Of a DNA stretch of 64,000 nucleotides, positions 21,601 through 46,490 are shown piece after piece. A program made the translations under genes and the position numbers. How positions within the stretch are numbered: the stretch's first letter is position 1; each line of letters opens with the position of its first letter. The notes beneath the pieces are model-generated. The model was given only the letters and a program-made list of their open reading frames with translations. It was not told the DNA's origin and did not search any database. This DNA is from Craspedostauros australis (lineage: Eukaryota; Bacillariophyta; Bacillariophyceae; Mastogloiales; Achnanthaceae). Location of the stretch: the NCBI GenBank assembly GCA_026770025.1, contig JAMXDE010000007.1, positions 992,001-1,056,000 of the forward strand, given 5' to 3'.

Positions 21601-23128
21601 ATTGCGACATGCGCTGCACGATGCCAGCCGGTACGGACTGGACCTGCGGATCGCCATGCGCGCTGTGAGGCATCATGTCGCCGCTCTGCGTCGACCATGG
21701 GCTTTGTGGGACGTGGCTCGATATTGATGATTTTCTGCTGGCTGTTGGCGATGTGGATGAACCGGGAGGGACAATCGGTCGTCTGGAATACGAACTGAAG
21801 ATAGAGCCGGAGTCATCCGATTCTCTGGCACCGACGTCTGATGATTGTCTGGCGAGTGCTGGTTCCTCCGCCGGATCAGCGCTACTGCTGTCCTTCTGAA
21901 GCCATGGTGGGAGCGCGACCTTTCGGATCTTCCTGTTCTTAGCCCAGTCGGGCGTTTTGCCCACGAGCGGAGCACCCGGCGGGTTGTTGGGTTGTTGATC
22001 AGGATCGGAAGCATCGGCGCTCTTCGTAGCAGCGGCAGCACTTCCCGATTTTTGTTTGAGGTTGATCTTCTGCCGCAGTTGCGTCAATTCTTTGATCTTG
22101 GACCGCGCGCTGGACATGCTCGTTGCGCTATGCACGCTTTCATGACCAACACTATGGTCCGAATGCTGACGATGCAGGGTGGAGTTGAAGGTGGTCTTGA
22201 GTGCCGATTCCATGGATGAGCTTTTGGCGCTGCCGTCGTCGCTGCTGTCAGCCGATTTAAGAAAGGCTGTTCCGATGGGTTTCTTACCAGTCGCAATGGG
22301 GCTGAGTATCGACTGGTTGTGGCTGGATGAATTCTTCCGTCGTGCGAATGCCGCCTTGCCTCTGCTCGATGAATGATTCGAGGATGACATCGATGAGACG
22401 GCGGAGGCCTTGCTATGCGTCGATGTGGTCTTCACCTGTCTTCGCGGTTGCTGCGTACTGCGCTTTGATGCGGAATGGTTGGATGTGGCGCCAATTCCCC
22501 CGGCATTTCTGTTGGACTGGGAGGACGCTGATATGGAACTGCTCTGCCGAAATGTTTTGGATGGCATCCGCGATGGTGTTTTTTCCACCACTTCATCATC
22601 CGTCGAATCCACCACAATCACCTCCTGGATCTCCATGTCCTCGTCGATGGCCGATTCCGAACTGGATGAAGGAGAGGAATGTGCCGATCGTCGCTGGTTT
22701 CTGCTCCTACCATCGCGCGAGGACATGGTGCTGCCCGAGTATGCCGATGGGTTTGACTCGTTCGATGAGCCGCCCGAGGATGAGCCGCTGGTCCCGGAGA
22801 GAGAGACGGATGATTCGGATCCAGACCTCGAGGAGCCTGACCCTGACGAACCTGACCTTGATGAATATGAGGAACCAGACGATGACGACGTGGAATATGA
22901 TCCGTATGTCATCCTGGAAGATCCTGAGTTAGACGACCCCCGTGAGCGCGTGGATGCCGAAGATGCAGATGTAGACGCAGATCCCGATGCTGACGAAGAC
23001 GAAGACGAGGAGCCGGATAAAGACGACGAGACGTCGGAGTGCGATCCTGATTGAGACTTCGGAGATGCAGTGCTGCGTGATGAAGAACTCTGGAAGAACA
23101 CAGTTGTCGGCGGTGGGGACTCTGACAT
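15619..23128 (-). CDS. LRR-A: type II membrane protein with long Ser-rich cytoplasmic tail and LRR ectodomain
   Basis: About 2,218 residues from exons 16921..23128, 16534..16605, 16191..16334 and 15619..15851 (all phase-1 introns, 315, 199 and 339 nt). Exons 2 and 3 are 72 and 144 nt, exactly one and two 24-residue LRRs; the joint 'LLENL|QVLDLSKNEIDGSIP' confirms splicing. No signal peptide. Residues about 1-1850 are disordered, Ser-rich, with poly-Ser runs and Trp motifs; one TM at about 1851-1880 (after Lys/Arg, 'CAICVIVAILLLLAGAATFV'); a Pro/Thr stalk; then the N-cap 'RYALAVLYYSSQGEDW', LRRs with 'GTIPEEL' style repeats and a terminal Cys cluster ('DCGEVGCTCCSHCC'). The start is the first ATG (23128) after an in-frame stop. 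This layout is known in diatoms; function is probably recognition or adhesion (inference). No kinase domain. Confidence 0.85.
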
Positions 23129-25044
23129 TAGCCGATCGATCAACGATTCGGTATGTTGTTGTTGTTGTCGCCGGTTTCGACTTGGACTTGGATGGTATGG
23201 TCCGAGGTTCAATGGTTCAGTACTCGAGGACCCTGGATTGCCTTTGGAGTGCTATGCTGCCAATGCGTGAATGTGTGGATGTGTGCGTGCACGTTTGTTG
23301 CTGATGTGGCTTGCCTTGTCACTCACTCTGTCGATGTGTGTGGAGGTCTGCGACTTGGATGCTGTGTCGGTTGCAACGACCCTTGGCTGCGCCTGTGGGC
23401 TCCGCCAGCGGTCAGTTGACGAAAGCCTCCACCGCTCGATGCTTCCTTCGCCTTTTCTCGCCACAGCGACGACAGCAGCAGCGACAGAGGTGAATACAGC
23501 AAGTCGACGATCAAGCGTTTCATGTATCAGTGGGATAACACCAGGCGGCCTCGTCGGAAACACAATGACATAGGGAACCGGCAGCCAACATCAACGACCG
23601 ATCGAATGTCTTCATCCACCACAGTGCAATGATGAAAGTGGCGAATATGGCCTCTCGGCGATGACGGCGATGAGATGATGATGATGATGCCGACACAAGT
23701 GCGCTGTTGCCATTCCCCAGCTTGCATGAAAGGCATCTGGACAATGCCTCTTCTTCCAGGCGGACGACGAACAAAGAAATCAAATCGACTGTCCAAATTT
23801 GGCGGAAGCAGAATGTCACCACAATTTTGTGCTCTGCGCAACAAATTTGTCACATCTTGCGCATTCGATACGGATGCGCACCCTAAATAACATTGCAATC
23901 ATGTCGCACAAGACACAAATACATATTGATACACATGAAATACTCACGTTGTTGTAACCGCCCTGTCTTGAGCCACATATACGCGGTCGTGACTGGAAGG
24001 AACAAAGGAGAAAATTGGCTCACTTTTTGCCATTTCTTTTTTCAGCACACGCGCTACAACAACGGTTGGTCAAAAAGTGTGCGCGCGATACGATGACTAG
24101 ACTTGTCGTTCACTGTGCAAACATCACTCACTTGCACGGCCGGCATGCCTATCTTTCACTCTGCTATATGCTGTACAATTCAGCACCATCAATGAGGCTA
24201 GAGTACTCCAACCCAGCCCATAGTACAGCAGAAATCACAGTGCCACTGCTGTCACTCTGTCTCGGCCATTCTAGTTCCATATGTATGTGTTTGTTCAATG
24301 GGCTAATACGATCGTTCGCTGCTTGGGTTTGGAGTGATCGATTTCTTGAGACAGCGAGACGTTGCTTGTGGAGAAAAAAGAATCTCCAGTCGGGATTTCG
24401 CTTGGGTCTGTGGTCGACTGACGAAGTGAATCGTTTGCACGTAACTGAATTGAGAGACGAAGCAATGCACCATGCTGCATGCCCAGATGCCGATACACAT
24501 CCTGAAGATCTTATTCTACCTGGAGTAGAGCAAGCGAGAGAGAGAGAGAGGTGGATTGCAGAGGCAAGGCTGGAGTAAGTTGCCCTGACCAAGACACCTG
24601 AGCAGGAGCCCCGACTGTTGCGCGCTGTGACTCAATTGACGGTTGAAGTACAGACTGACAATGACACATTCCCCAAATGGAGTTGCGGCGATTATTCAAT
24701 TGTGTAAAGAATGATCGAACTTCATATCGCACTAAAAACACTAGGTTCACGTCCGACGAAACACCATCCCAACACATTCGTTGGAAACGCTGGAGTCCTC
24801 CTGATACTAGAGGATGGCACATAGTACACCTACTTGTATCATTTCCGCTGAAGTGGATATTCGTGCACCAAGGTAGGTGAACACGGGTGAATCGACAACT
24901 AAAAGAGAGGTTCTGATCTGAATTTACCATATCAATGCTCCGCTCTACATGCTTTTTGTGCAACCGCAGACAGGCGCTGCTGGGTGGTTTTGACGTGTTC
25001 GTCTGTGAGGCTTCAACTTCTCGCTGTACTTCGCATATGCCTGC
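23129..25044. other. Spacer between tandem LRR genes
   Basis: 1.9 kb between the LRR-B stop and the LRR-A start, both on the minus strand, so it holds the LRR-B 3' flank and the LRR-A promoter and leader. A short GA run lies at about 24536-24552. No additional exon was found that joins either gene. Confidence 0.4.
24536..24552. repeat. GA microsatellite
   Basis: Short run of GA dinucleotides in the spacer between LRR-A and LRR-B. Confidence 0.8.
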
Positions 25045-28000
25045 TCATACGCAACCGAAATCGTCGATGCAACATGTCGTACAGCACAGGCATTGTGTTT
25101 CTTGGCAATCGGACCAGAAATCTCTGATGTCCAAATCACACACGCCGCCCGGAATAGGACCAACCAAGCTGGTTGCGTCCAAGTAGATCAGTTGCAGGTT
25201 GATTGCGTTCGCAAGCTGAGTGGGAATGTTCCCTCCCAATTGTTGGTTGTCGTAGACGGAGAGGCCCGCAAGGCTCGCCATGTTGCCGATCTCGCTCGGA
25301 AGCGGACCAACAAGATCGTTCGACCCAACATCCAGCATCTCCAGCTCCAGGAGCCGACCGAGCTCTGTTGGGATCGTCGATATTAGCTGGTTGTCATATA
25401 GGGAAAGGCGTTTCAGCAGGGATAGACGTCCGTACTCGGTGGGAATCTCCCCAGTAACTTCATTTGAACGGAGCTCCAACTCTTCGAGTGCTGTGAGACG
25501 CGACAATTCTGGAGCCAGCGATCCGGAAAGACTGTTCTCCAACAGCTCGATGGTACGGAGCTCCTCCAGTAACAGCACTTCCAATGGAAGCGTGCCATCC
25601 AAGTTGTTCTCGCCAAGATTCAGTTCGACATATTTGGCACCGCCGTTGCACACAGGGTCTTTCGTTTCGCTGGTGTACCAAAGACATTCATTGGAGGTGG
25701 ATAGCCAGGACTGTTTGTTTGTCCAGGAGCTACCACCTGTGCTGTAATAGATGGTGACCAAAGCATATCGCTGGATGAGCTGATCCTGATCTCCGATATT
25801 GTTGTTCGCTGCAGACTGCACCCAGCCGAAGGCGGTCCGTTGCGCGGTGCCCTCTGTTCTCAGGGCTTCGCCGCCATCAGCAGATATTGACTGGATCAGA
25901 GCGTATAGCGGATCGGTCTCATCAATGACCACTGGTGGGAATCCATTCGGCGCAGGTGTTGGGGATGGCGTATTGGCAGGAGATAACGTCGGTTGCACCA
26001 CCGGTGCGCTGGTGGACGGCGGGCCGGTCCCTGCGCAAACGCAGCACGAGCATTGGACTCGATCGCAATCGATTCTTAGAATGTCAAGCTGCAAATCGCA
26101 AAGTTCGGTCGGCACCGATCCTTTCAGGAGGTTTTCCGACACATCCAATGTGCGAAGCCCTGTCAGCAGTCCTAGCTCGCTTGGGATTGTGCCTACACCA
26201 TGTTGTTGTTGTTGTTGTTGTTTTTTGCAGAAGTTGGGATGTTGCGAGGGGGGCAATGGCAGCAACATTGACGGAAGTACAAGCAACGAAAGCAAAAAGA
26301 ATTGTGAGGGCCAGGTTTCTTCGATAAATAAGCGCTCACATGCATGATATCGCAAAGGATCGCCGCATTGGCCCACCGACGCGACGTACCTGAAATGAAA
26401 TTCGTATTGAGAAGCAAAGACTTTACCGATGTCAATTTTGACAGCTCGGTGGGGACATTCCCGGACAGTCTATTCTTCGACATATCAAGGTATTCAAGGG
26501 CCTCCAGCTGCCCCACTTCGCTGGGAATCATCCCGGTGATCCTGTTGCTGAAGAGGTCAAGCACCAACAAAGACGAGAAAGTCCCGATCGTTGGTGAGAT
26601 CTTCTCGGAAAGTGCATTCTCAAAGAAGTCAAGCACCAAGATTTGTGGGGCGATAATGCTCAACTCCGACCACGGAATCGGACCGGTGAGCTCATTTGAG
26701 TCGAGGTCGATCTCGTCTAGCTCTCCCTGCGCATTGCAAATGGCCGCGGTCGCTTCGGATGTGTACCACGTGCACTCAGACTCGTCGCTCAGCCACCTGT
26801 CATTGTTTGTCCAATCGTCACCTTGTGTGGAGTAGTACAAGGTGGCAAGCGCGAAGCGCTGGAACAGCTGCCTGTTGGAGTATGAATCAAGATTCGCATT
26901 GTCGAGGAGCCAATTGATGGCCATGCCGGAGGGAGTGTTTGGATCTGCCAAAGCATCCTGGTTGTCGGGCAAGACGGATGCAATCAGCTGAACAATGTCG
27001 CTTGCTGTTGGCATCGAAACCGTGTTTGGTGCCATGGTCGGAGGCGCAGGGACGAATATCGGACTCGGGGTTGGCTTCGTTGAATTGAAGGATGTCTCAC
27101 GGGGGCTGGATCCAGAATCCCTGGTTAGAATGATCGGGAGGATGATCACCACTGCGACGATCAAGCAGCAGACGAAGGCGGCCAAAGCTGCCAGGAGGAT
27201 TCTGCGAGATCCCCACTTCTCCTCACTTTCGTCAGAGCTCGATTCGGAAGCCTCGTCTCTGGCTTGGTCGTCGCCATCCTGGCTCATGCTCCTGTTGCTT
27301 TTATTGTTTGTGCCTTGCGACTCGTCGTTCAGCGGCATCTCCTCATCTGATCCAAACGTGAATCTTCCGGAGCTGTGTGCTTTTTTGCCACCTTGTGACC
27401 TGGAGGATTGCATTCTTGGGATGGAAGCTTCTTCGGCACTGTCGACGTTGGAGGTGATGATGTCTGGGAATCCCTGATCCCCAAAGAACCGATCCTTCGT
27501 TGCTTGGTTTCCTTCGCCAGCAGCAGCATTGGATGCATTGAAGACAAAATTGTTGTCGTTGATAGCATCATCTTCTCGATTCGATTGCGATACCTTAGCA
27601 GAGACGGAATACTCGCTGTACTCTTGTTCCTTGTCGCTGCTCTGCTCGGAAGAGCTCTCACTTTCTCCGCCAAACTCTTCGCCCGAAGTGGTATCAGACT
27701 CTGACTGTGACTCGAACTGAGATTGGGATTGAGATTGGGATGCGACCTCAGATCCAGACTTTGATGAACCTGATCTCGATGCAGAATCATCGCCATGCGA
27801 CGGTGAGTGGTTCGATTGCGAATGTGACGTTTCGGATTCGTCTGCCTTCCCCGTCAAGTGTCCGGATGACTGAGATGCAACAGAGGATGATACCATTCCA
27901 GTAAAGTCGATCCTTGCAGATCCAAGCGGCGGCATCCATTGTGAAAATGAGGACCCGCTGGATTTGCTCGATTGTGAATCATAGACCGCCTTGCCAGGCG

Positions 28001-31000
28001 GGGCCTTCCACGAGCCAAAGCTTCGCAAAGAGCCTTCTGGTGAAGCTTGTCGGATGACGCCCGGTGGTAGCCACTTGGAGTCATCCTTTGGTTTAGATGA
28101 TGCGACCGGGATGCTGTCGGGGAGGGACGCCTCCTCAGGGATCACTCGTTGCACTACGGGAGTCGGCGGTTCCCAACTCTCCAGTTCTTTCGTCTTGTGG
28201 ATGTTGCTGTAAAGAAATGCGTCAGAGTCTTGGTCTGCTTTTGGCGTGGTCTTCCACGAGGAAGCCAGGGTTGCAGGATGGCGCGGGACATATCTGGGAG
28301 GAAGACCTGCTGATGATGCTGATGCTCTTGTCTTTGGTGGTGCTCGCGGAATGGCCCTTGGCATGGCTTGTGTGGCTGCTTGTGGAACGGGAGTTGCTCG
28401 TTTTCTCGAGGAATCGGATTGACTGTGGTCGCTCGATCCCTCTACGATGACTCCAGATGGTGCCTTCTTGTGAGAAGGTATCGCTTTCGTTCTCGCTTTC
28501 GCTGAGTCTAGTCCGCCCCATCCGACGGCTGCATTGATCGCACTGTGGTTCGGCTCGACTCTCTTCTCACTGATTGCATCTGAGCCGTCCGTTGCAGTTG
28601 TCACAACGCTTACGCTCGCACTCTCGATTGCATTGGTACTTCTTCCAAGGCGATCGACAGCCCAGGACAAGACTGGAAGCGGACTTTTCGGCTTCGTCGG
28701 AGGCTTCTTGTCGTCCTTTTGGCTTGGTGTTTTGGATCGAGGCACCACGTAGGTTTCACGGTATGCGTATTGAGATGCGCCATAAGTGTTGTCTGTCTCC
28801 AAAGATGCAAGTGCAGGACCTGCGGATCCCTCTACCTGTGCTTCGATATCATTCGATCTGGCATGGCCTTGAATCGAGCGACCTGTTTGCTCACCGTGAT
28901 ATTGCGTTGCACTTTGAGACGTTGCATTCGCTCCAATCTGGGTGTCGACATTTGAAATGAGGTTGGTGTCTGTGCTTGCTGCTCTGCTGCTGCTTCCCGT
29001 TGAGGACTCTCGCAGGGGGCTTCCGCTGTTGGATTCTGCGCGAAAGAGTCGTCGCTTTGATGAAGCCTTCTCCTGACTCTTCGCCGTCGTCGAGAAAATG
29101 TTCATGAAATCCCACGATCCAACCGTGCTCGATCGCTCGGAGGAAGAATCGTCAGAAGCAGAAGATGCTTCGAGTGATGGCTGTGATCCCTCGAAGGCGT
29201 CCTCGACAATGACTTGATTTCGCAAAGAGGTGCTTTGCTTCTGCTTGTTTGAAGGCTTGTGTGGCGAGGCATTGGCTGATTCTGGGGAAGAGCCTACTTC
29301 GTCAGAGCCGTTGGGCGAATCGTTGCGTGTAGACACACTTGGTTCGATGGGTTCTGAGGTGGAGCCGAAGAACTGAGATGATTTGCTGCTGCCTCCTGAG
29401 CTTGGTTTGGAGGAATCAGGATCGCTGGTCACGAAGATACTTTTCTGTGGAGTGCTTCGCTTCGTTCTTGAGTCCGGACTGTTTGATCCTGACGATCCTG
29501 AAGACTCTGATGAGGAGGAGGATGATCGAGATGAAGCTGAAGCCTCCGGAAGAAGAGAAGGCGCGGAGGTGGGCGTAGACTTTGAAGCTTGAGATGCCGG
29601 CAGTAGGGGGAGAGATCTCTTGGATGAAGCCCGACTGGATGCTTTGCTGGAGGTATTGATTTTGCTCCCATCTGACGCCACGCTTGATCTTCCAGCGGAC
29701 TTGCCACTTTCATCGGTGGTGCTGCTACCACTACTGCGACTCACATTCAATCCTCGAGATCCCTTCGATGATGTCGATGCTGACACCGACACCGATGCAG
29801 ATGCAGCCAGCACTCCTCGATCCTTCACCAACGAAGTGTCATCAAATGCTGTGATACTGGGCACTCCAGCATCCCATGGCACATCATCGAAAGTCGGTAT
29901 GCTGATCTCAGAGTCGGATCCCAACAGACCGGATGATCCAGGAGCATCAGCAGCCATGTCAGCGTCACCGACGGCAGGCGTAGCATCCCAGGTTGGGAGG
30001 ACAGCAGGCTGTGGCAGACTTCCTTGTGTTGATGAGTTGGAAGATCTGGATTGGGCAGATGGCTTCGATTGAGCTGATGATCGGGTTTGGGCGGATGATC
30101 TAGATTGAGCGGATGACCGGGATTGAGCGGATGATCTTGAACCAGATGATGATCCAGATGATGATCTGGACGATGATCCAGATGACGATCCGGATGATGA
30201 TCCAGAGCTTGAGCCCGAAGTGGCACCAGATGCAGACCTTGATGAGTTTGATCCTGAGGATGATCCTGAGGATGAACCCGATGATGAACCAGATGAAGGA
30301 TCTGATGATGAATCTGATGACGAATCTGATGACGATCCAGAACCATGGTCGGTTTGCCACGGCATCAATCCATCATCCACATCAGGCCCTGATCTCGATG
30401 CGTCCTCAACAGACTCAGATCCATCAAATAGGCTTGATGCCTTTGGCTTCGAGGTAGCGCCTTTGCTTCCTCCTCCTGATACCGAGGTTGCTCGGCTTGA
30501 CTTGCTTGTTTTGCTGGCCACAGATTGGTCTCTCGATGTGCTAGAAGCGTGGCTAGAAGCGTGGCTGAAGGCGTGGCTGGAAGTGTGACTGGAAGCATGG
30601 CTTGCTGATGGAGATGTCGGCAAAGATGCAAACGAAGGTGCGACAACGTCACGAGCTTGTGCGCTTCTGTTGCTCGTGTTCGATGTCTTGCTGTGAGAGT
30701 CTCCAGACGACTCTGAATGAGGTTGTGAGCTGTGAGATCGTGAGCTGTGAGATCGGCCACTGCTATCTACGCCTCCTGTTTGACTCATGTTTGCACTTTG
30801 GTCCCCAGTGCTGGATAGATCTCCAGTCCTGGATGAGGCTCGGCTTGTGCTGCTGGAATGCGATGTGACGGAGCCTTGTGTGTTTGGTTGGGACTGGAGT
30901 TGAGATTGAGAGTGGCCCTCAGACTGTGACTGAGGGTGGGACCGAGATCCGTCTGATTGCTTTGAGCGATGTGATTGTTCTGAATGTGCTGAAGAATCAG

Positions 31001-34000
31001 ATCCATTGAATGAACGATGTGAAGATTCAGACACAACGGACCCGAGACCTTCAGCTGCAACAGATCTTGTCTTGGATTTTGAAGATCCAGATCCGCCCGA
31101 GTGCATCAATATTCCAGATTGGATCAGCCCTGCAGGTGTAGATCGGTTGCTCAGGCTTGCCTGCGACGATCGGGATGGTGACGCTGATGCGAAAGATGAT
31201 CTTGAACTCGATGTACCGTGCCCGGTCGATCTTTCTGATCTATTCGACGTACCAGACCTGTCTGATTTACCAGACCTACCAGACCATTCAGACCTGCCAG
31301 AAGTACCGAAAACACTGGAGCGAGTGCTGGCAGAAGCATCAAGATCAAATCCATCACCTCTGCTACGATCGCTACCACTGGCCTGACTCCCACTCGCACC
31401 CGTCCTGTCATCGCCACCAAGGCTGTTGAAACTTGATCCAAACGACCCGCGAGCACTGGCGAATGATAACGATCCATCTTCATTCGGAGTATCGTTGCGC
31501 GACGATCGATGTTGGATTCCATCTCTACTGATCTGACTCACGTTGCTGGTCTTGCTGCCGTTACTGGCGTGACTTGGTGCTGTACGAGATGCTTGAGATT
31601 GGTTAGAGTACTGAGATGTCTCAGATTGTCGCGATGACTGTGATGATTGCGATCTCTGTGACTGACTGCCACCCATCATCGAGCTTCCAAGTGATTGGCG
31701 TGTAGACACAGATCGACTAGATCTAGATCTGCTGCCGTAGTCACTGTCATGATCACTATCAACAGGAACTTGCTGCTCTGTCTGTGGTGACGGAACCATG
31801 ATGTCTGAGATGGGGAGTTGATGAGCGGAGTTTGCACTGGTTGCGCCCGATCCCGATCTTGATCCCGATCTTGACTTGGAGCTGTCGCTGTTGCTCTTGC
31901 TTTTGCTTTGACTTCTACTCGCACTTCCTGCGAGGTTGCCACCATGGAAGGCTTCGCCACTTGTTGATGTGATGATGTCTGGTTGTGAATGACTGGCATC
32001 ACCACTGGCCCTTGATCCAGATGATCTTGATGAAGAGGATGGACTTGATGAAGAGGATGAGCGAGATGAAGCTGAGACCTTTGGAGGACGGGTCGGCACA
32101 GAAGAGGGCGCAAAAGAAGTTTGAGGTTCTGATGGCACTGGCACTGGCGATGGCTTTGGAGATGGTGGGGGGAGAGATCGCTTGGATGAAGACTTCGCCG
32201 CAGCCTTCGACGAGATCCTGCTCGATGATCCTTTCGATGATCCCTTTGATGAAGCTCTGCTGGATGCTTGGCTGCTTGGTTTACTCCTGTCTCCGTCAGA
32301 CTTCACGCTTGATCTTTCTGCAGACTTCCCGCTCTCGCCACTGCCGCTGCTACTGCCAGTCTGAGCGCTACTGCGACTCACATTCGATCCTCGAGATCCC
32401 TTCGATGATGTCGATGCTGACACCGACACCGATACGGACGCCGGTGCAGCTGCAGGCGAAGACACGGGCGTCGATGCAGATGCAGATGCAGCCAGCACTC
32501 CTCGATCCTTCACCAACGAAGTGTCATCAAGTGCTGTGATACTGGGCACTCCAACATCCCATGGCACATCATCGAAAGTCGGTATGCTGATCTCGGAGTC
32601 GGATCCCAACAGACCGGATGATCCAGGAGCATCAGCAGCCGTGTCAGCGTCACCGACGGCAGGCGTGGTGTCCCAGGTTGGGAGGACAGCAGGCTGTGGG
32701 AGACTTCCTTGTGTTGATGAGTTGGAAGATCTGGATTGGGCAGATGATTTGGAAGACTTGGAGGATCTGGAAGAGTTGGATGGTCTGGATGATGCCGATG
32801 ATCCAGATTGAGCTGACGACCTGGATTGAGTGAACGATCTGGATGATTGAGATGAATGAGATGACTTGGATTGGACAGATGATCTCGATGACCCAGAGAC
32901 AGAGCCTGGTCCGACTGACGCTGCTGACGCCACAGATCCGGTTGGAGGTCGGTCTGGCTTGTTGGAATACGATCGTACCGAATCTTGTGTCCGTGATTGA
33001 GACTGAACGTCAGCCTGAGACTGGGCTTCAGACTGAGATCGAGAGTTGGATCGGGATCTATCTGATTCTTCTGACCCCAGTGATCTTTTTGAGTTTGTGG
33101 AACCTGCAGACGCGCCAACTGACCGGTGGGATGATTTGGACGAGGCGGAGCTTGACGGGTGGGATACCCGAGAAGCACCAGACTGTAACTTTGACCTGGA
33201 CGATGTAGATCTAGCTGAGTACTCTGATACGGCTGATCGACTTGATCCTGCAGATACGGATGTCGATGTTGATGCTGATGCCGACGCTGATGAGAAAGAT
33301 GATCGCGATCTTGAACTCAATGTGCTAGATCCGGTCGATCTGCCAGACCTTCTGGATGTACCAGATGCATTGGAGTGCGTGGGAGACTGGGGCACTTCGC
33401 TGTCATGGCTCCCTGATCGCTGACTTTCATCAAAGCTGTGGGTGTCACCGATCTGGTCCGATGGGTACGGATCAGTTTGAGTCTCCACCACCGATGATTC
33501 CTGTACTCTGCTGCTGTTGTCTCCAACTGGAGATGCAGCATCTCGTGGTGGATTCGCCTCATATGGGGATGTAGGTGGATCCAGTCGCCGCTGCAGTTGT
33601 GGATCTGATCCAAAAGCTGATTCAGACCCTGATTCTGATTCAGACCGTGACTGTAACCGTGAGTGTGACTGTGAGTGCCTGGATCGCGAGTGAGAACCAG
33701 TGGCGGTAGCACGACTGCTGGCAGAAGCATCAAGATCAAATCCATCGCCTCTGTTACGATCGCTCCCACTACCACTGTTATTGTCAACACTGTGATTTGC
33801 ATTGCTGCCATTGATGTTGCTGCTGCTGTGACTCTGTCGTGTGTGAGATGATTGAGAGTGCTGCGTGTGTTGGGATGTATTGGACTGCTGCGATGAGTGC
33901 GACTGTGATGATGCGCGAGACTGTGGAGAAATGAGTGATTTGTTGGATGCACGAGACTGCTTCGACGTGTATGAGGCTTGCGATCTCTGTGACTGACTGC

Positions 34001-37000
34001 CACCCATCATCGAGCTTCCATGTGATTGGCGTGTAGACACAGATCGACTAGATCTGGATCTGCTGCCGTAGTCACTGTCATGATCACTATCAACAGGAGC
34101 TTGCTGCTCTGTCTGTGGTGACGGAACCATGATGTCTGAGATGGGAAGTTGATGAGCGGAGTTTGCACTGGCTGCGCCCGATCCCGATCTTGATCCAGAT
34201 CTTGACTTGGAGCTATCGCTGTTGCTGTTGCTCTTGCTTTTGCTTCTGCTTTGACTTCTACTCGCACTTCCTGCGAGGCTGCCACCATGGAAGGTTTCGC
34301 CACTTGTTGCTGTGATGGCGCCTGGTTGTGAATGGCTGGCATCACCACTGACCCTTGATCCAGATGATCGTGATGAAGAGGATGAGCGGGATGAAGCTGA
34401 GGGATCGGGGAGAGTAGTCGGCACGGACATGGGTGCAGATGTGGAAGTATGCGATACTGATGGCGCTGTTGATAGTGCTGACGATGGCGCTGACGATGAT
34501 GGAGGCCGGGATGCGTTGGATGATCCTTTCGATGATCCCTTTGATGAAGCTCTGCTGGATGTTTGGCTGCTTGGTTTACTCCTGTCTCCGTCAGACTTCA
34601 CGCTTGATCTTTCTGCGGATTTCCCGCTCCCACCACTGCCGCTGCTACTGCCAGTCTTAGCGCTACTGCGACTCACATTCGATCCTCGAGATCCCTTCGA
34701 TGATGTCGATGCTGACACCGACGCCGACGCCGATGCCGATGCAGCCAGCACTCCTCGATCCTTCACCAACGAAGTGTCATCAAGTGCTGTGATACTGGGC
34801 ACTCCAGCATCCCATGGCACATCATCGAAAGTCGGTATGCTGATCTCAGAGTCGGATCCCAACAGACCGGATGATCCAGGAGCATCAGCAGCCGTGTCAG
34901 CGTCACCTATAGCAGGCGTGGTGTCCCGGGTTGGGAGGACAGCAGACTGTGGCAGATTTCCTTGTGTTGATGAGTTGGAAGATCTGGATTGGGCAGATGA
35001 CTTCGATTGAGCCGATGATCGGGTTTGGTCGGATGCCGATGATTTAGATTGAACTGATGACCTGGATTGAGCGGATGATCTTGAACCAGATGACGAACCA
35101 GATGATGATCTCGATGACCCAGAGACAGAGCCTGGTGTAACCGACGCTGCTGAAGTCACAGATCCGGTTGAAGGTCGGTCTGTCTTGCTGGAATGCGATT
35201 GAACTGAATATTGTGTCCGTGACTGGGACTGAACGTCAGACTGCGCTTCGGAATGAGATCGAGAGTCGGGTCGGGATCCATCTGATTCTTCTGAGTGTCC
35301 CGATCTCTCTGAGTTTGATGACATGTCTGATCGACTTGATCCTGCAGATACGGATGCCGATGCGGATGCCGATGCGGATGCCGATGCCGATGCGGATGCC
35401 GATGTGTTGCTGAAGCTCCCTTGTGACGATCGCGATGCGGATGCTGACGCTGATGCGAAAGATGATCGTGATCTTGAACTCAATGTGCTAGATCCGGTCG
35501 ATCTGCCAGACCTCCTGGATGTACCAGAAACATTGGAGTGCGTGGGAGACTGGGGCACTTCGCTGTCATGATTCTCTGGTCGCTGACTTTCATCAAAGCT
35601 GTGGGTGTCACCGATCTGGTCCGATGGGTACGGATCAGTTTGAGTCTCCACCACCGATGATTCCTGTACTCTGCTGCTGTTGTCTCCAACTGGAGATGCA
35701 ACATCTCGTGGTGGATTCGCCTCATATGGGGATGTAGGTGGATCCAGTCGCCGCTGCAGTTGTGGATCTGATCCAAAAGCTGATTCAGACCCTGATTCTG
35801 ATTCTGACCGTGTGTGTGACTGTGAGTGTCTGGATCGCGAGTGAGAACCAGTGGCGGTAGAACGACTGCTCGCAGAAGCATCAAGATCAAATCCATCGCC
35901 TCTGCTACGATCGCTACCACTGACCTGACTCCCACTCGCACCAGTCCTATCGTCGCCACCAAGACTGTTGAAACTTGATCCAAACGACCCGCGAGCACTG
36001 GCGAATGATAACGATCCATCTTCATTCGGAGTATCGTTGCGCGACGATCGATGTTGGATTCCATCTCTACTGATCTGACTCACGTTGCTGGTCTTGCTGC
36101 CGTTGCTGGCGTGACTTGGTGCTGTACGAGATGCTTGAGATTGGTTCGAGTGCTGAGATGTCTCAGACTGTCGCGATGACTGTGATGGTTGCGATCTCTG
36201 TGACTGACTGCCACCTATCATCGAGCTTCCATGAGATTGACGTGTAGACACAGATCGACTAGATCTAGATCTGCTGCCGTAGTCACTGTCATGATCACTA
36301 TCAACAGGAACTTGCTGCTCTGTCTGTGGTGACGGAACCATGATGTTTGAGATGGGGAGTTGATGAGCGGAGTTTGCACTGGTTGCTCGTAATCCCGATC
36401 TTGACCCAGATCTTGATCTCGAGCTGTCGCTGTTGCTTTTGCTTTGACTTCTGCTCGCACTTCCTGCGAGGCTGCCACCATGGAAGGTTTCGCCACTTGT
36501 TGATGTGATGATGTCTGGTTGTGCATGACTGGCATCACCACTGGCCCTTGATCCAGATGATCTTGATGAAAAGGATGGTCTCGATGAAGCCGAGGCCTTT
36601 GGAGGATGGGTCGGCACAGAAGAGGGCGCAAAAGAAGTTTGAGGTTCTGATGGCACTGGCACTGGCGATGGCTTTGGAGATGGTGGGGGGAGATATCTCT
36701 TGGATGAAGTCCGACTGGATGCTTTCCTGAAGGTATTGATCTTGCTTCCATCCGACGTCGCGCTTGATCTTCCTGTGGACTTGCCACTTTTATCGCTGAT
36801 GCTGCTACCACTACTGCGACTCACATTCGATCCTCGAGATCCCTTCGATGATGTCGATGCTGACACCGACGCCGATGCAGATGCAGCCAGCACTCCTCGA
36901 TCCTTCACCAACGAAGTGTCATCAAGTGCTGAGATACTGGGCACTCCAGCATCCCATGGCACATCATCGAAAGTCGGTATGCTGATCTCAGAGTCGGATC

Positions 37001-40000
37001 CCAACAGACCGGATGCTCCAGGAGCATCAGCAGCCATGTCAGCGTCACCGACGGCAGGCGTAGCATCCCAGGTTGGGAGGACAGCAGGCTGTGGGAGACT
37101 TCCTTGTGTTGATGAGTTGGAAGATCTGGATTGGGCAGATGACTTGGAAGACTTGGAGGATCTGGAAGAGTTGGATGGTCTGGATGATGCCGATGATCCA
37201 GATTGAGCTGATGACCTGGATTGAGCTGATGATCTGGATGAATGAGATGAATGAGATGACTTGGATTGGACAGATGATCTCGATGACCCAGAGACAGAGC
37301 CTGGTCCGACTGACGCTGCTGACGCCACAGATCCGGTTGGAGGTCGGTCTGTCTTGTTGGAATACGATCGTACTGAGTCTTGTGTCCGTGACTGGGACTG
37401 AACGTCAGCCTGAGACTGGGCTTCAGACTGAGATCGAGAGTGGGATCGGGATCTATCTGATTCTTCTGACCCCAGTGATCTTTTTGAGTTTGTGGAACCT
37501 GCAGACGCGCCAACTGACCGGTGGGATGATTTGGACGAGGCGGAGCTTGACGGGTGGGATACCCGAGAAGCACCAGACTGTAACCTTGACCTGGACGATG
37601 TAGATCTAGCTGAGTACTCTGATACGGCTGATCGACTTGATCCTGCAGATACGGATGTCGATGTTGATGCTGATGCCGACGCTGATGAGAAAGATGATCG
37701 CGATCTTGAGCTCAATGTGCTAGATCCGGTCGATCTGCCAGACCTTCTGGATGTACCAGATGCATTGGAGTGCGTGGGAGACTGGGGCACTTCGCTGTCA
37801 TGGCTCCCTGATCGCTGACTTTCATCAAAGCTGTGGGTGTCACCGATCTGGTCCGATGGGTACGGATCAGTTTGAGTCTCCACCACCGATGATTCCTGTA
37901 CTCTGCTGCTGTTGTCTCCAACTGGAGATGCAGCATCTCGTGGTGGATCCACCTCGAATGAGGATGTAGGTGGATCCAGTCGCCGCTGCAGTTGTGGATC
38001 TGATCCAAAAGCTGATTCAGACCCTGATTCTGACCGTGTGTGTGACTGTGAGTGCCTGGATCGCGAGTGAGAACCAGTGGCGGTAGAACGACTGCTGGCA
38101 GAAGCATCAAGATCAAATCTATCACCTCTGCTGCGATCGCTACCGCTACCACTACCACTGTTATTGTCAACACTGTGATTTGCATTGCTGCCATTGATGT
38201 TGCTGCTGCTGTGACTCTGTCGTGTGTGAGATGATTGAGAGTCCTGCGTGTGTTGGGATGTATTGGACTGCTGCGATGAGTGCGACTGTGATGATGCGCG
38301 AGACTGCTTCGACGTGTATGAGGCCCGCGATCTCTGTGACTGACTGCCACCCATCATCGAGCTTCCATGTGATTGGCGTGTAGACACAGATCGACTAGAT
38401 CTGGATCTGCTGCCGTAGTCACTGTCATGATCACTATCAACAGGAGCTTGCTGCTCTGTCTGTGGTGACGGAAGCATGATGTCTGAGATGGGAAGTTGAT
38501 GAGCGGAGTTTGCACTGGTTGCGCCCGATCCCGATCTTGACTTGGAGCTATCGTTGTTGCTTTTGCTTTGACTTCTACTCGCAATTCCTGCGAGGCTGCC
38601 ACCATGGAAGGCTTCGCTACTTGCTGCCGTGATGGTGCCTGGTTGTGAATGGCTGGCATCACCACTGGCCCTTGATCCAGATGATCGTGATGAAGAGGAT
38701 GAGCGGGATGAAGCTGAGGGATCGGGGAGAGTAGTCGGCACGGACATGGGTGCAGATGTGGAAGTATGCGATACTGATGGCGCTGTTGATAGTGCTGACG
38801 ATGGCGCTGACGATGATGGAGGCCGGGATGCGTTGGATGATCCTTTCGATGATCCCTTTGATGAAGCTCTGCTGGATGTTTGGCTGCTTGGTTTACTCCT
38901 GTCTCCGTCAGACTTCACGCTTGATCTTTCTGCGGATTTCCCGCTCCCACCACTGCCGCTGCTACTGCCAGTCTTAGCGCTACTGCGACTCACATTCGAT
39001 CCTCGAGATCCCTTCGATGATACCGACTCTGGTGCAGGGGTTGATGCAGATGCAGCTGCAGGCGAAGACACCGGCGTCGATGCAGATGCAGATGCAGATG
39101 CAGCCAGCACTCCTCGATCCTTCACCAACGAAGTGTCATCAAATGCTGCGATACTGGGCACTCCAGCATCCCATGGCACATCATCGAAAGTCGGTATGCT
39201 GATCTCAGAGTCGGATCCCAACAGACCGGATGATCCAGGAGCATCAGCAGCCATGTCAGCGTCACCGACGGCAGGCGTGGCATCCCAGGTTGGGAGGACA
39301 GCAGGTTGTGGCAGACTTCCTTGTGTTGATGAGTTGGAAGATCTGGATTGGGCAGATGGCTTCGATTGAGCTGATGATCGGGTTTGGGCGGATGCCGATG
39401 ATCTAGATTGAGCTGATGACCTGGATTGAGCGGATGATCTTGAACCAGACGATGATCCAGATGATGATCCGGACGATGATCCAGAGCTTGAGCCCGAAGT
39501 GGCACCAGATGCAGACCTTGATGAGTTTGATACTGAGGATGATCCTGAGGATGAACCCGATGAAGGATCTGATGAATCTGATGACGATCCAGACCCATGA
39601 TCGCTTTGCCACGGCATCAATCCATCATCCACATCAGGCCCTGATCTCGATGCGTCCTCAACAGACTCAGATCCATCAAATAGGCTTGATGCCTTTGGCT
39701 TCGAGGTAGTTCCTTTGCTTCCTCCTCCTGATACCGAGGTTGCTCGGCTTGACTTGCTTGTTTTGCTGGCCACAGATTGGTCTCTCGATGGGCTAGAAAC
39801 GTGGCTAGAAACGTGGCTAGAAACGTGGCTAGAAGCGTGACTGAAGGCGTGGCTAGAAGCACGGCTGGAAGCACGGCTGGAAGCATGGCTTGCTGATGGA
39901 GATGTCGGCAAAGATGCAAACGAAGGTGCGACAACGTCACGAGCTTGTGCGCTTCTGTTGCTCGTGTTCGATGTCTTGCTGTGAGAGCCTCCAGACGACT

Positions 40001-43000
40001 CTGGATGAGGTTGTGAGCTGTGAGATCGGCCACTGCTATCTACGCCTCCTGTTTGACTCATGTTTGCACTTTGGTCCCCAGTGCTGGATAGATCTCCAGT
40101 CCTGGACGAGGCTCGGCTTGTGCTGCTGGAATGCGATGTGACGGAGCCTTGTGTGTTTGGTTGGGACTGGAGTTGAGATTGAGAGTGACCCTCAGACTGC
40201 GACTGAGGGTGGGACCGAGATCCGTCTGATTGCTTTGAGCGATGTGATTGTTCTGAATGTGCTGAAGAATCAGATCCATTGAATGAGAGTGCCTCGAGTT
40301 GCAGTTGCTGTTGTATCGGTGACTTGATTGAAGACTGCGAGTGTACGGAACGAGAATGGGAGGGGCTGGTCCGACTTGCCCGACTGATTGCACTCGCATT
40401 GCTGTTGTGACTTGGTGCCGTACGAGATGCTTGAGATTGGTTCGAGTGCTGAGATGTCTCAGACTGTCGCGATGACTGTGATGGTTGCGATCTCTGTGAC
40501 TGACTGCCACCCGTCATCGAGCTTCCATGAGATTGACGTGTAGACACAGATCGACTAGATCTAGATCTGCTGCCGTAGTCACTGTCATGATCACTATCAA
40601 CAGGAGCTTGCTGCTCTGTCTGTGGTGACGGAACCATGATGTCTGAGATGGGAAGTTGATGAGCGGAGTTTGCACTGGTTGCTCGTGATCCCGATCTTGA
40701 CCCAGATCTTGATCTCGAGCTGTCGCTGTTGCTCTTGCTTCTGCTTTGACTTCTGCTCGCACTTCCTGCGAGGCTACCACCATGGAAGGCTTCGCTACTT
40801 GCTGCCGTGATGATGTCTGGTTGTGAATGGCTGGCATCACCACTGACCCTTGATCCAGATGATCTTGATGAAGAGGATGAGCGAGATGAAGCTGAGACCT
40901 TTGGAGGACGGGTCGGCACAGAAGAGGGCGCAAAAGAAGTTTGAGGTTCTGATGGCACTGGCACTGGCGATGGCTTTGGAGATGGTGGGGGGAGAGATCG
41001 CTTGGATGAAGACTTCGCCGCAGCCTTCGACGAGATCCTGCTCGATGATCCTTTCGATGATCCCTTTGATGAAGCTCTGCTGGATGCTTGGCTGCTTGGT
41101 TTACTCCTGTCTCCGTCAGACTTCACGCTTGATCTTTCTGCAGACTTCCCGCTCTCGCCACTGCCGCTGCTACTGCCAGTCTGAGCGCTACTGCGACTCA
41201 CATTCGATCCTCGAGATCCCTTCGATGATACCGACTCTGGTGCAGGGGTTGATGCAGATGCAGCTGCAGGCGAAGACACCGGCGTCGATGCAGATGCAGA
41301 TGCAGCCAGCACTCCTCGATCCTTCACCAATGAAGTGTCATCAAATGCTGCGATACTGGGCACTCCAACATCCCATGGCACATCATCGAAAGTCGGTATG
41401 CTGATCTCGGAGTCGGATCCCAACAGACCGGATGATCCAGGAGCATCAGCAGCCATGTCAGCGTCACCGACGGCAGGTGTGGCATCCCAGGTTGGGAGGA
41501 CAGCAGGCTGTGGCAGATTTCCTTGTGTTGATGAGTTGGAAGATCTGGATTGGGCAGATGATTTGGAAGACTTGGAGGATCTGGAAGAGTTGGATGGTCT
41601 GGATGATGCCGATGATCCAGATTGAGCTGACGACCTGGATTGAGTGAACGATCTGGATGATTGAGATGAATGAGATGACTTGGATTGGACAGATGATCTC
41701 GATGACCCAGAGACAGAGCCTGGTCCGACTGACGCTGCTGACGCCACAGATCCGGTTGGAGGTCGGTCTGTCTTGTTGGAATACGATCGTACTGAGTCTT
41801 GTGTCGGTGATTGAGACTGAACGTCAGCCTGAGACTGGGCTTCAGACTGAGACTGGGCTTCAGACTGAGACCGAGAGTGGGATCGGGATCCACCTGATTC
41901 TTCTGAGTGTCCCGATCTCTCTGAGTTTGATGGCATGTCTGATCGACTTGATCCTGAAGATACGGATGTCGATGCGGATGCCGATGTGTTGCTGAAGCTC
42001 CCTTGTGACGATCGCCGTGCTGATGCTGATGCCGACGTTGATGAGAAAGATGATCGCGATCTTGAGCTCAATGTGCTAGATCCGGTCGATCTGCCAGACC
42101 TTCTGGATGTACCAGATGCATTGGAGTGCGTGGGAGACTGGGGCACTTCGCTGTCATGGCTCTCTGATCGCTGACTTTCATCAAAGTTCTGCTCAGGACC
42201 GGGAATATCGGTGACCGGAGCAGGGATTGACATCTGGCTGCTTTGGCTCCCGTTTCTCGCGTCATCTGTATGATAGTAACTATGCGGATCAACTCGGCTT
42301 CCTACCATCGATGGTGCCCGTGTCATGCTGCTGTTGTCTCCAACTGGAGATGCAGCATCTCGTGGTGGATTCGCCTCATATGGGGATGTAGGTGGATCCA
42401 GTCGCCGGTGCAGTTGTGGATCTGATCCAAAAGCTAGTTCAGACCCTGATTCTGATTCTGACCGTGTGTGTGACTGTGAGTGTCTGGATCGCGAGTGAGA
42501 ACCAGTGGCGGTAGAACGACTGCTGGCAGAAGCATCAAGATCAAATCCATCACCTCTGCTACGATCGCTACCACTGACCTGACTCCCACTCGCACCAGTC
42601 CTATCGTCGCCACCAAGGCTGTTGAAACTTGATCCAAACGACCCGCGAGCACTGGCGAATGATAACGATCCATCTTCATTCGGAGTATCATTGCGCGACG
42701 ATCGATGTTGGATTCCATCTCTACTGATCTGACTCACGTTGCTGGTCTTGCTGCCGTTGCTGTTGTGACTTGGTGCCGTACGAGATGCTTGAGATTGGTT
42801 CGAGTGCTGAGATGTCTCAGACTGTCGCGATGACTGTGATGGTTGCGATCTCTGTGACTGACTGCCACCCATCATCGAGCTTCCATGTGATTGACGTGTA
42901 GACACAGATCGACTAGATCTGGATCTGCTGCCGTAGTCACTGTCATGATCACTATCAACAGGAACTTGCTGCTCTGTCTGTGGTGACGGAACCATGATGT

Positions 43001-46000
43001 CTGAGATGGGAAGTTGATGAGCGGAGTTTGCACTGGTTGCGCCCGATCCCGATCTTGACCCAGATCTTGACTTGGAGCTGTCGCTATTGCTCTTGCTTTT
43101 GCTTTGACTTCTGCTCGCACTTCCTGCGAGGCTACCACCATGGAAGGCTTCGCCACTTGCTGATGTGATGATGTCTGGTTGTGAATGGCTAGTATCACCA
43201 CTGACCCTTGATCCAGATGATCTTGATGAAGCTGAGGGATCGGAGAGAGCAGTCGGCACGGACATGGGTGCAGATGCGGAAACCTGCGATTCTGATGGCG
43301 CTGGTGATAGCGCTGACCATGATGGAGGCCGGGATGCGTTGGATGATCCCTTCGATGATCCCCTCGATGATCCATTGGATGAAGCTCTGCTGGATACTTG
43401 GCTGCTTGGTTTACTCCTGTCTCCGTCAGACTTCACGCTTGATCTTTCTGCAGACTTCCCGCTCTCACCGCTGCCGCTGCTGTTGCTGTTGCCAGTCTTA
43501 GCGCTACTGCGACTCACATTCGATCCTCGAGATCCCTTCGATGATGTCGATGCTGACACCGACACCGACGCCGGTGCAGCTGCAGGCGAAGACACGGGCG
43601 TCGATGCAGATGCAGATGCAGCCAGCACTCCTCGATCCTTCACCAACGAAGTGTCATCAAATGCTGCGATACTGGGCACTCCAGCATCCCATGGCACATC
43701 ATCAAAGGTCGGTATGCTGATCTCAGAGTCGGATCCCAACAGACCTGATGATCCAGGAGCATCAGCAGCCGTGTCAGCGTCACCGACGGCAGGTGTGGCA
43801 TCCCAGGTTGGGAGGACAGCAGGCTGTGGCAGATTTCCTTGTGTTGATGAGTTGGAAGATCTGGATTGGGCAGATGATTTGGAAGACTTGGAGGATCTGG
43901 AAGAGTTGGATGGTCTGGATGATGCCGATGATCTAGATTGAGCGGATGGCCTGGATTGAGCTGATGATCTGGATGGGTGAGACGATCTGGAAGATCTTGA
44001 GGCAGGTGATGATTCGGACACTGACCCAGAAACAGAGGCAGAAGCAGACGCTGATCCTGAGGACGACGTGAACACAAAAATAGACGGTTTGGATGACCGC
44101 TTCGTGTTTGAGGCACCATCTACAGAGCTGTGTTCGCTGTCGGAGCTACCGCGCTTCTCAGACTTGTGGCTGGCAGCTGAGCTGTCCGAGCTGCTCTGTG
44201 CACGTGATACCAAAGAAGGTGCAGCTTGTTGGTCGGGTTCCGCAGCTTCTTGGCGCATGCCAATTTCTTTGTTGGCTTCCCCTGCATCTGCATCGCCTGG
44301 ATCGTGCCGCTCTTCCGATTGAGGATCAGAACGTTCTTCGTTGCTGTCAGCATCTTGAGATGACACTGGAGTTGACTGCCCAGACACTTCATGGATTTCT
44401 TCCTTCTGTTCATCTGGCATTTGAAGGGATGGTGCCGTCACATCGTTGTCATTTGGCTGGCTGGTGGCTTTGCTGAGGTCATCACCATCATTTGCCTCGG
44501 ACTCATCTTGCATCTCCCACGGAAAGCGCGCTGGCTTGGCGACCTCGTCTTCACTCGAAGATGAGTTGTACCCGTACGGATTGTTGTAGGCGTGATCATC
44601 GCCTTCAATGTCGCTCATTTCAGAATCAAAGTCCATCGGCCGGTATGAACTCGACGAGCTCGATGACCTTGATGGCGACTTTTCCGATTGGCTGCCTTGA
44701 TGCTCGCTCTGGCTGGCCGTCCCCAAAGACTTCACACCCATTTGATCCGAGTCGTCGTCTCCTTCCACCGTGGATGCCTTACTCGAGTCCGCACTGTCCA
44801 GAGATTTCACACCGTAATCATTTGACTCGTCATCCGAGCCTGGCGGTGATACGACAACTGCGCTCTCCGAGTCTTCGGACGCATAACTCCGTTGGCTGTT
44901 GTACGGCGACTCGTTGCTACTCGTCTCTCGGAAGTAATCATCGTCGCTACGGGTCCCTTCATCGCTTCCATAACTCACACCCTCATGTTCGTACGTTTCG
45001 GGGGAGAGGTCCGAGTCAGATCGTTCAGTCCCCTCACTAATGCTGCGTTCGGTGTCTCGATCCCGTGATTCGGTTGGAAACGCACCGCTGGATTCGTCGT
45101 ACCCGTTGGATGAATAAGATCCGTCTGACGAAGCGGTTCCAGCCGATCGTGGCGCTGGTGGGTATGACGAATCGGCATCTGCAGTTTCGTTCCCAGCACT
45201 CTCGCTGGGTTCCAAGCCCGATTCTCCTCCTTCAGAAGGAAGCGGACTCTCCTCCGATGAGGAGGAGACGCGGTCCTCGGAGGAGGAGATGTCGTCCTCG
45301 TCGACTTCTTCGATGGGTTCCAGGAAGGCTCCTTCAAATTCGCCATCTTCGTCGCTGTATTGGTAGGAATGGTCCTCGTAGTGAGACTGGTACAGGTCCG
45401 AGTCATCATCGCTGCTGCCGGACTCTGCGCTTTTCGATTCCCACCAAGGTTTGACAGCATCCGAGCCGTAGCTTTCGTCTGAGTTAGACCGCGTGTCATC
45501 GTCTATCTCCATTATCGTCTCCAAGGGATGTCCAAAGCCATCGTTGTTGAAGGAATCGAAGAAGGAAAGGTTGTCGTAAGAATCGTTGGATTCGTCAGAG
45601 AAGTCATTGTCCCCGTAGGAATCGTACTGCCGATGCTCGGTGTGATCGATGAGGTCCCTGGCTTCTTCCTCCGCGTCGTCGTCGTCTTCTTCTTCCTGAC
45701 GCTCTCCGACAGGTGGAGGTTGACCTCCAGCCTCCTTGACTTCCCACCATGGCAGCACATCCCCAGGTGTTGCAACGAGCGGAGAGCTCTGCTCGAGTTC
45801 TGACTGCGTGTCCACGTTTCTGTTCTGGACAGGGGGTGAGTTCTGGGGAGCTGGTTCATGCAGATGATCGGCATCTCGGTCCGCTGCAACGTCATGCCAA
45901 TCACCATCCGAATGCGGCGAAGTGGGGGACGCGGACGATGCGTACTCGATGTCATCGACGTTGATATTGACCATGTCCGCAGTGTTCAGTCTGTGGCCGC

Positions 46001-46490
46001 TTCTATCGCTGGGACCATTGCTACCGCTATCGCCATTGATGTCGCCACTACTGTTGCTATTGCTGGGGCTGTTCTCATGGTAGTTCTCCACAATGGTACC
46101 TCCTCTATCGCCGTCGTTACTGTCATCATGGTAGTCATTGTGCGTTGGGAACGCTGCGTCTCTGTGTCGGCTCTCCTCCGAATCCGAGCTGGAGGTCATC
46201 ATGATCGCAGGGTTTTGAACGCTCCGCGACAATTCAGTTTCTTGGTGCGGGACAGAAGCCTCCATGGTTCCCCAGTCGTCTACAGGTGCGGACTCTGGTT
46301 CTGGCTCTGCCTCCACTTCAGGCTCTGTTTCCCTTGCGGGCTCTGGCTCTTGCGTAACTTCCACGGGGACTTCCACATGGACGCCACTATCGTTGCTATC
46401 GGCACTGTCCATAGTGATTTTTGTGTGCCTTCGAAGGCACTTTCTCCAGCGGAGGTGCTTCCGAAGGCCGTTTCGGGCCCATCCCCCCAT
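25045..46490 (-). CDS. LRR-B: giant membrane protein, repetitive Ser/Arg-rich tail plus two tandem LRR ectodomains
   Basis: Two exons: 26390..46490 and 25045..26192, intron 197 nt (gtacgt...gtag, phase 1); the joint reads '[17 protein letters not shown]'. Length 7,082 aa from the ATG at 46490, or 7,056 aa from 46412, which has a better start context (A at -3, G at +4). No signal peptide. Residues about 1-790 are acidic and Ser-rich; about 790-5600 hold seven mosaic super-repeats; about 5600-6400 hold unique Ser-rich sequence and a Trp-motif train ending 'ARIDFTGMV'. One TM lies at about 6403-6428 (bases 27120-27205, '[22 protein letters not shown]'). A Pro/Thr stalk and LRR ectodomain 1 end in a Cys cluster ('[12 protein letters not shown]'); a second stalk and ectodomain 2 end '[14 protein letters not shown]'. 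Orientation N-in/C-out is inferred. No enzymatic domain is visible. Confidence 0.83.
26201..26222. repeat. TTG/CAA trinucleotide microsatellite in the LRR-B intron
   Basis: Seven or more TTG units just inside the acceptor of the LRR-B intron (on the minus strand CAA repeats directly before the acceptor). Length change here could affect splicing efficiency. Confidence 0.85.
29600..44030 (-). repeat. Seven-copy coding super-repeat in LRR-B exon 1 (period about 2.1-2.7 kb)
   Basis: A conserved core starting 'STQG[NS]LPQ' and running through '[20 protein letters not shown]' to '[12 protein letters not shown]' occurs seven times, near 43619-43856, 41305-41538, 39103-39338, 36887-37118, 34742-34978, 32491-32722 and 29811-30030. 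A second block ('HQLPIS[DN]IM[VL]PSPQTEQQ', '[15 protein letters not shown]') occurs six times, near 42865-43035, 40510-40670, 38347-38510, 36217-36375, 34005-34165 and 31675-31830. Between them lie variable Ser/Arg/Gln modules present in only some copies. All copies keep the same reading frame. Confidence 0.95.

Follow-up and report, generated by a model that had tools for sequence, protein, structure and literature searches.

A giant leucine-rich repeat membrane protein of the diatom Craspedostauros australis with a long, repetitive tail

Membrane proteins with leucine-rich repeats (LRR) and without a kinase are already known in diatoms. In the available part of the source, MRP2 and MRM2 of Pseudo-nitzschia multistriata are described as mating-type-biased, possessing an LRR domain and a transmembrane region but lacking a recognisable kinase, and are proposed to be pheromone receptors or adhesion molecules; the LRR motif is termed common in diatom proteomes (PMC6261938). 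Genome analysis of a 64,000-nucleotide stretch of Craspedostauros australis (contig JAMXDE010000007.1, positions 992,001 to 1,056,000; hereafter the window) showed the presence of a gene on the minus strand, at 25045-46490, encoding a protein of the same membrane, LRR and no-kinase plan. Compared by plan with MRP2 and MRM2, as far as the accessible text describes them, the focal protein adds a repetitive tail of 6,430 residues and two tandem ectodomains. The nearest solved LRR ectodomains, by both sequence and fold, are those of plant LRR receptor kinases (MIK2, GSO1, ERL, RGFR1); unlike these, the focal protein begins with the tail and ends with the LRR, lacks a signal peptide as judged by hydropathy, and has no kinase encoded in exon 1.

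The second described system is the Costars family (ABRACL, Dictyostelium Costars and the C-terminus of ABRA/STARS), the domain of which is present in the tails of two paralogs of the focal protein. According to the available portion of one source, the roughly 9-kDa protein Costars is related to the C-terminus of ABRA, and ABRACL interacts with cofilin, modulates actin and in vitro inhibits cofilin-stimulated actin disassembly, its direct binding to F-actin being weak (PMC7922284). In contrast to this small protein, the domain of the paralogs sits within a single-pass LRR membrane protein. Relative to the accessible parts of these sources, the size of 728 kDa and the Costars domain in a tail appear to be new features; no report of giant-tailed or Costars-bearing diatom LRR membrane proteins was found in the titles and abstract beginnings listed from open-licence literature.

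Architecture, family and topology

The focal gene consists of two exons (46490-26390 and 26192-25045) and encodes a predicted product of 7,082 amino acids and 728 kDa. Its main features are as follows.

26390..46490, minus strand: exon 1 (20,101 bp), encoding the tail, the membrane helix and the first part of LRR ectodomain 1
26193..26389, minus strand: sole intron of the model (GT..AG, 197 bp, from sequence), within LRR ectodomain 1
25045..26192, minus strand: exon 2, encoding the end of LRR ectodomain 1, a Pro/Thr/Ser linker, LRR ectodomain 2 and the stop
43893..46490, minus strand: N-terminal stretch of the tail (residues 1-866), Ser-rich and acidic with a net charge of -0.15 per residue
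29571..43889, minus strand: array of six complete super-repeat units and a partial seventh (residues 868-5640; Ser content 33%)
27126..27200, minus strand: membrane helix, residues 6431-6455, with KWGSRR just before it
26037..27023, minus strand: LRR ectodomain 1 (LRR by Pfam) with its N-terminal flank, interrupted by the intron
25045..25920, minus strand: LRR ectodomain 2, with Cys-bearing caps

The spliced coding sequence, computed from the DNA, is 21,249 nt long with one terminal stop, and the open frame 26193-46490 of the minus strand runs for 6,765 codons from the ATG. The first in-frame ATG was taken as the start, M27 being an alternative, and the model, built from sequence only, may conceal a further intron. 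The five other frames of the tail contain 73-533 stops each, with a longest open run of at most 277 codons, so the open frame of the tail exceeds chance.

The tail (residues 1-6430) is followed by the helix and then by a stalk and the two LRR ectodomains. The helix is the single strong one, with a hydropathy of 3.28 versus at most 0.87 in the tail and at most 1.31 in the ectodomains; a sub-cut-off Pfam match to Orf78 (E 0.0025) lies over its region. The Pfam scan of exon 1 revealed no domain above cut-off in the tail and no kinase domain (E 0.1), and exon 2 reads as LRR to its stop. These results bear out the sequence-only reading, made before the present analysis, which had described an LRR membrane protein of about 7,060 amino acids with a first exon of about 20 kb and a tail of some 6,400 residues, devoid of an enzyme domain, ahead of the only membrane helix. 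The large family with its longer second giant, the Costars paralog and the juxtamembrane module, described below, go beyond that reading. The two ectodomains are 36% identical on alignment. An alignment of four rows shows no variation at cysteines C81, C93, C263 and C274 of ectodomain 2, the predicted structure of which is an LRR solenoid (mean pLDDT 78) nearest to plant receptor ectodomains.

A search of the C. australis genome with the focal ectodomain gave at least 195 matches (138 of the 631 first-look candidates were scored). Among the matches listed, 98 frames have a median length of 949 codons, six exceeding 2,000 and two exceeding 6,000 codons, and the closest paralog is 39% identical (E 3.8e-43). 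The focal protein fits the plan of the family: charged tail, basic residues, one helix, Pro/Ser/Thr stalk and C-terminal LRR domain. The same plan, with tails of about 1,100-1,660 residues, was found in four of the nearest paralogs, two of which (L055 and L056) are incomplete at the LRR end. An N-cap resembling QR(Y/F)ALA.LYYST.G..W is present in 22 of 30 family rows, including both focal ectodomains, and is unmatched in the other 8. A continuous coding frame, one helix, two Cys-capped LRR ectodomains and membership of a large family with the same plan are established features of the predicted protein. A group of closely similar LRR membrane genes, about 1,100 codons long and with further copies on C3 and C41, is clustered on contig C13 (about 1.57-1.78 Mb) and seems to have expanded recently.

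A second giant gene of the family is located at C14:50184-84860 (loci L046-L051), where the frame between two stops spans 11,558 codons, or 11,544 when counted from the first Met. Like the focal gene, it encodes a long repetitive tail with an LRR ectodomain at the C-terminal end, its helix being weak (hydropathy 1.82); unlike the focal one, its tail contains 7% Ser and three unrelated repeat types (129, 23 and 17 motif copies). Outside this genome, the ectodomain of the paralog adjacent to the focal gene, used as a protein query, gave three matches, one of them from a diatom: NITZ4_000935 of Nitzschia sp. Nitz4 (P0011, 1,193 aa, EukProt). This protein shares with the focal one the charged tail, the helix, the LRR ectodomain and a W..P / RIDFAG module, and differs from it in a tail of about 830 residues without a repeat array and in a single ectodomain; no Costars domain was found in it at E 0.1. 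When the focal ectodomain was searched against proteins between 0.55 and 1.75 times as long as the query (about 3,721-11,839 aa), 8 LRR-rich proteins matched, from the sources ena, jgi and lgn, and none from EukProt.

The tail is predicted to be cytoplasmic on the basis of the charge bias of the family and the distribution of cysteines. Within 15 residues of the helix, 30 family rows contain in sum 121 Lys and Arg on the tail side versus 34 on that of the LRR; 27 rows have an excess towards the tail, 3 show equal numbers and none has fewer there. Rows L011 and L036, being further matches in genes already counted, were left out, and the rows counted are not independent, since one cluster contributes about ten close copies and a further two are paired with each other. 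The helix of the C14 giant has one such residue on each side. One cysteine is present in the focal tail versus 18 in the focal ectodomains, and no hydrophobic N-terminus or signal peptide was detected by hydropathy (best window -0.04, among windows starting within the first 60 residues). A cytoplasmic and disordered tail of 6,430 residues is strongly supported, in agreement with the earlier assumption of an N-in topology.

Three other assignments were considered and rejected. An extracellular tail conflicts with the N-in charge bias across the family. Silaffin-like proteins of silica deposition are defined by a secretory signal peptide, with the tail in the lumen, and neither the N-terminus of the focal protein nor its topology fits. 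SR proteins combine an RNA recognition motif (RRM) with an RS domain; RS/SR dipeptides are enriched in the focal tail, but Pfam found no RRM in exon 1.

Super-repeats and constraint on the tail

Residues 1-6424 of the tail include 1,935 Ser (30.1%), 58 Tyr and one Cys. The array is marked by a core of about 80 residues that occurs seven times at intervals of 714-895 aa, and is followed by about 780 further tail residues.

43491..43877, minus strand: core copy 1 of 7, containing ...SLVKDRGVL (contig position C5:1035491-1035877)
41175..41561, minus strand: core copy 2
38967..39356, minus strand: core copy 3
36807..37142, minus strand: core copy 4
34650..35000, minus strand: core copy 5
32355..32747, minus strand: core copy 6
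29724..30059, minus strand: core copy 7, in the partial unit

The seven imperfect super-repeats noticed earlier are seven as to cores, six of the units being full and the seventh retaining only its first part. The units are mosaic: a second half common to copies 2 and 6 is absent from copies 1, 3, 4 and 5. A 130-aa core query had seven matches in the whole 75-Mb genome, all inside the focal open reading frame. By eye, a further possible short motif was seen to recur in three tails, those of the C14 giant, L056 and the focal gene: P/N-W-(W)-E (as PWWE, NWWE or PWE) with acidic residues after it.

The frame of the repeats is maintained through constraint on the protein. For three non-overlapping copy pairs in nucleotide alignments, the ratio of nonsynonymous to synonymous substitution rates (dN/dS) is 0.44 in the coding frame versus 0.93 and 1.03 in the shifted frames, from which 23 and 119 codon pairs with stops were excluded; the protein sequence of the repeats is therefore constrained, as the sequence-only reading had held in proposing selection rather than junk. 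Differences at codon positions 1, 2 and 3 number 495, 443 and 809 over all 21 copy pairs, which are not independent, and 88, 72 and 135 in three independent pairs (p 1.8e-5). The pooled pN/pS, from a codon alignment of blocks with at least 60% identity, a filter biased to low values, is 0.50. Gaps are multiples of three in 140 of 194 cases. Copies 3 and 5 are close (synonymous divergence dS 0.046), most copy pairs differ at many sites, and the core is apparently the best conserved part of the repeat alignment.

The description of the tail as highly phosphorylatable was retained in part. The excess of RS/SR dipeptides (455 versus 251 in shuffles) agrees with it, but S-x-x-D/E sites (150 versus 202) and S/TP sites (82 versus 137) are both depleted relative to shuffles.

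Juxtamembrane module and Costars domain of the paralogs

Between the array and the helix, the focal tail contains a candidate module which also occurs in the paralog lying next to the focal gene on the same strand.

27897..28175, minus strand: juxtamembrane module of the focal gene, residues 6106-6198, four W..P motifs followed by RIDFTG
16787..23212, minus strand: first exon of the adjacent paralog (2,141 codons, first ATG at 23128), encoding a Ser-rich tail, the helix and the start of the LRR ectodomain
20897..21109, minus strand: tail segment of the adjacent paralog matching Costars (PF14705), at residues 702-772 of the frame
18527..18544, minus strand: RIDFSG of the juxtamembrane module of the adjacent paralog
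17501..17581, minus strand: membrane helix of the adjacent paralog

By the pattern used, the focal chain has four W..P motifs, all at residues 6106-6185, immediately ahead of RIDFTG at 6193. W..P motifs together with R(I/V)DF(S/T/A)G were found 169-324 residues before the helix in the focal gene, the adjacent paralog, a paralog on contig C25 (C25:797989-802986, L057) and Nitzschia P0011; the putative focal module is recognised by motif and position. Shuffling of the focal tail reproduced the six-letter motif in 2 of 2,000 cases and its combination with position and W..P in 0 of 2,000, a result that serves as a guide and not as a formal test, because the motif was defined after being seen. As a DNA pattern, which misses the Ser codons AGY, R(I/V)DF(S/T/A)G has 11 matches genome-wide. 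Eight of them code for R: three belong to the focal, adjacent and C25 genes, two lie on C40 near LRR matches and three are in short frames. No match was found within the three nearest C4 paralogs. In low-complexity-filtered BLAST comparisons between seven tails, the RIDF module appears weakly when P0011 is compared with either Costars paralog (E 0.026 and 0.010), and the Costars block is detected at E 1e-23.

The Costars domain of the adjacent paralog scores 61.4 bits against a cut-off of 24 (E 9.5e-17), and that in the tail of the C25 paralog, also an LRR membrane protein, 60.5 bits (E 1.7e-16). A six-frame search revealed three Costars domains in the genome, the third being a stand-alone frame of 79 codons at C9:1843221-1843439 (L058), 68% identical to the domain of the adjacent paralog. 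The solved matches of the paralog domain by sequence are ABRACL (2L2O, the best) and the actin-binding domain of ABRA (2KRH); its fold model, with a modest mean pLDDT of 70, has the same two structures as its best folds (E 0.069 for 2KRH).

Several other features were noted in the window and the genome. On the far side of the Costars paralog, at 11651-14431 of the minus strand, an SMP domain and two C2 stretches are encoded, an arrangement resembling that of the lipid transfer protein extended synaptotagmin. A 659-codon frame at 56283-58259 of the plus strand contains a NUMOD3 motif, which usually accompanies homing endonucleases. The silicon transporter family is represented by 88 match rows, of which 32 cover at least 480 of 513 positions, four of these with in-frame stops; such a count is unusually high for a diatom. 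These transporters and the Nitzschia homologue agree with the diatom origin of the genome.

Possible function and relation to gliding

The architecture is well supported; as to function, we infer an adhesion- or receptor-type diatom LRR protein in which the tail is a long multivalent tether docking through the juxtamembrane module, likely at cortical actin. A probability of about 0.42 is assigned to this reading, and a scaffold or tether, suggested earlier, is indeed the natural class for a tail with no enzyme domain in exon 1. Outside the cell, the fold of the two LRR domains suggests that they would bind a wall, mucilage or cell-surface ligand. Inside, the conserved W-x-P-P / R(I/V)DF-G module may dock a cytoplasmic partner common to the Costars paralogs, most likely at cortical actin. 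The seven repeated cores would supply many equal binding sites, and RS/SR-rich linkers could be tuned by phosphorylation. The flexible tail would have a contour of about 2.3 um and a random-coil span of about 90 nm, both estimated from scaling constants, and the number of sites and the reach would have been determined by tandem duplication of an approximately 2.2-kb unit.

Several observations weigh against the tether reading. No Costars domain is present in the focal tail, according to both the six-frame genome search and the Pfam scan of exon 1, and so the actin link of the focal protein is by kinship and a short motif only. A search for Costars in other large proteins (about 916-2,915 aa) gave 52 candidates, none at E 0.01. 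Filtered BLAST of the seven tails finds no module in the focal one, and the tree of ectodomains does not place the focal gene beside the Costars paralogs (8 of the 30 rows, unfit for the N-cap pattern, were dropped from it). The repeat core is without a match elsewhere in the genome, the charge bias at the focal helix is weak (3 on the tail side versus 2 on the LRR side), and 54 of the 194 gaps are not multiples of three, possibly as alignment noise.

Tolerated gigantism is a serious though doubtful alternative, according to which a disordered spacer lengthened cheaply through unequal crossing-over, function resides only in the juxtamembrane module and the LRRs, and the repeats merely stay soluble and open. 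It accommodates a core private to the focal gene, the mosaic units, the unrelated tail repeats of the second giant and the existence of relatives with tails of about 830-1,660 residues. The dN/dS of 0.44 versus about 1 in shifted frames, with the core best conserved, is at odds with it, although the constraint could be on disorder and composition only.

A pheromone or microbe receptor, with ligand-sensing LRRs and the tail as a phosphorylation platform without a kinase of its own, as proposed for MRP2 and MRM2, seems unlikely. The plan shared with these proteins, as given in the accessible part of PMC6261938, the plant receptor ectodomains as nearest solved LRRs and the excess of RS/SR dipeptides are consistent with it, but exon 1 encodes no signalling or adaptor domain above cut-off, and S-x-x-D/E and S/TP sites are fewer than in shuffled sequences. 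Tandem repeats are notoriously prone to misassembly and copies 3 and 5 are close, but a misassembled copy number or a 20-kb exon made up of several transcripts is very improbable, given the frame kept across all copies with frame-specific constraint, the many differences between most copy pairs, the single frame that starts at the ATG, crosses the array and continues through the conserved module to the helix and LRR, the contig of at least 2.8 Mb and the second giant elsewhere in the genome.

Extending the tether reading, the focal gene, the adjacent paralog and the C25 relative might form an integrin-like diatom system, with LRR adhesins outside, actin control inside via Costars and the shared dock, and the giant as an elastic tether; this is a speculative proposal with a low probability. 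In the available parts of the sources, gliding of diatoms is described as movement in which secreted strands are coupled to actin and myosin through hypothesised membrane-spanning components, none of them named there (PMC11962607, PMC13104615, PMC11420354), and a rival model, involving raphan synthase, manages without such a membrane link (PMC11420354). If the integrin-like proposal were true, its members would be candidates for the membrane-spanning link that the adhesion motility complex model requires at the raphe, joining actin to extracellular polymers.

Genes of this size may often be split during annotation and could then be overlooked. A constrained single-pass protein of 728 kDa, together with a second giant with unrelated repeats, raises the question of why long tails evolved repeatedly within one receptor family, and a membrane LRR family with an actin-regulator domain on the predicted cytoplasmic side offers a concrete candidate for the gliding link.

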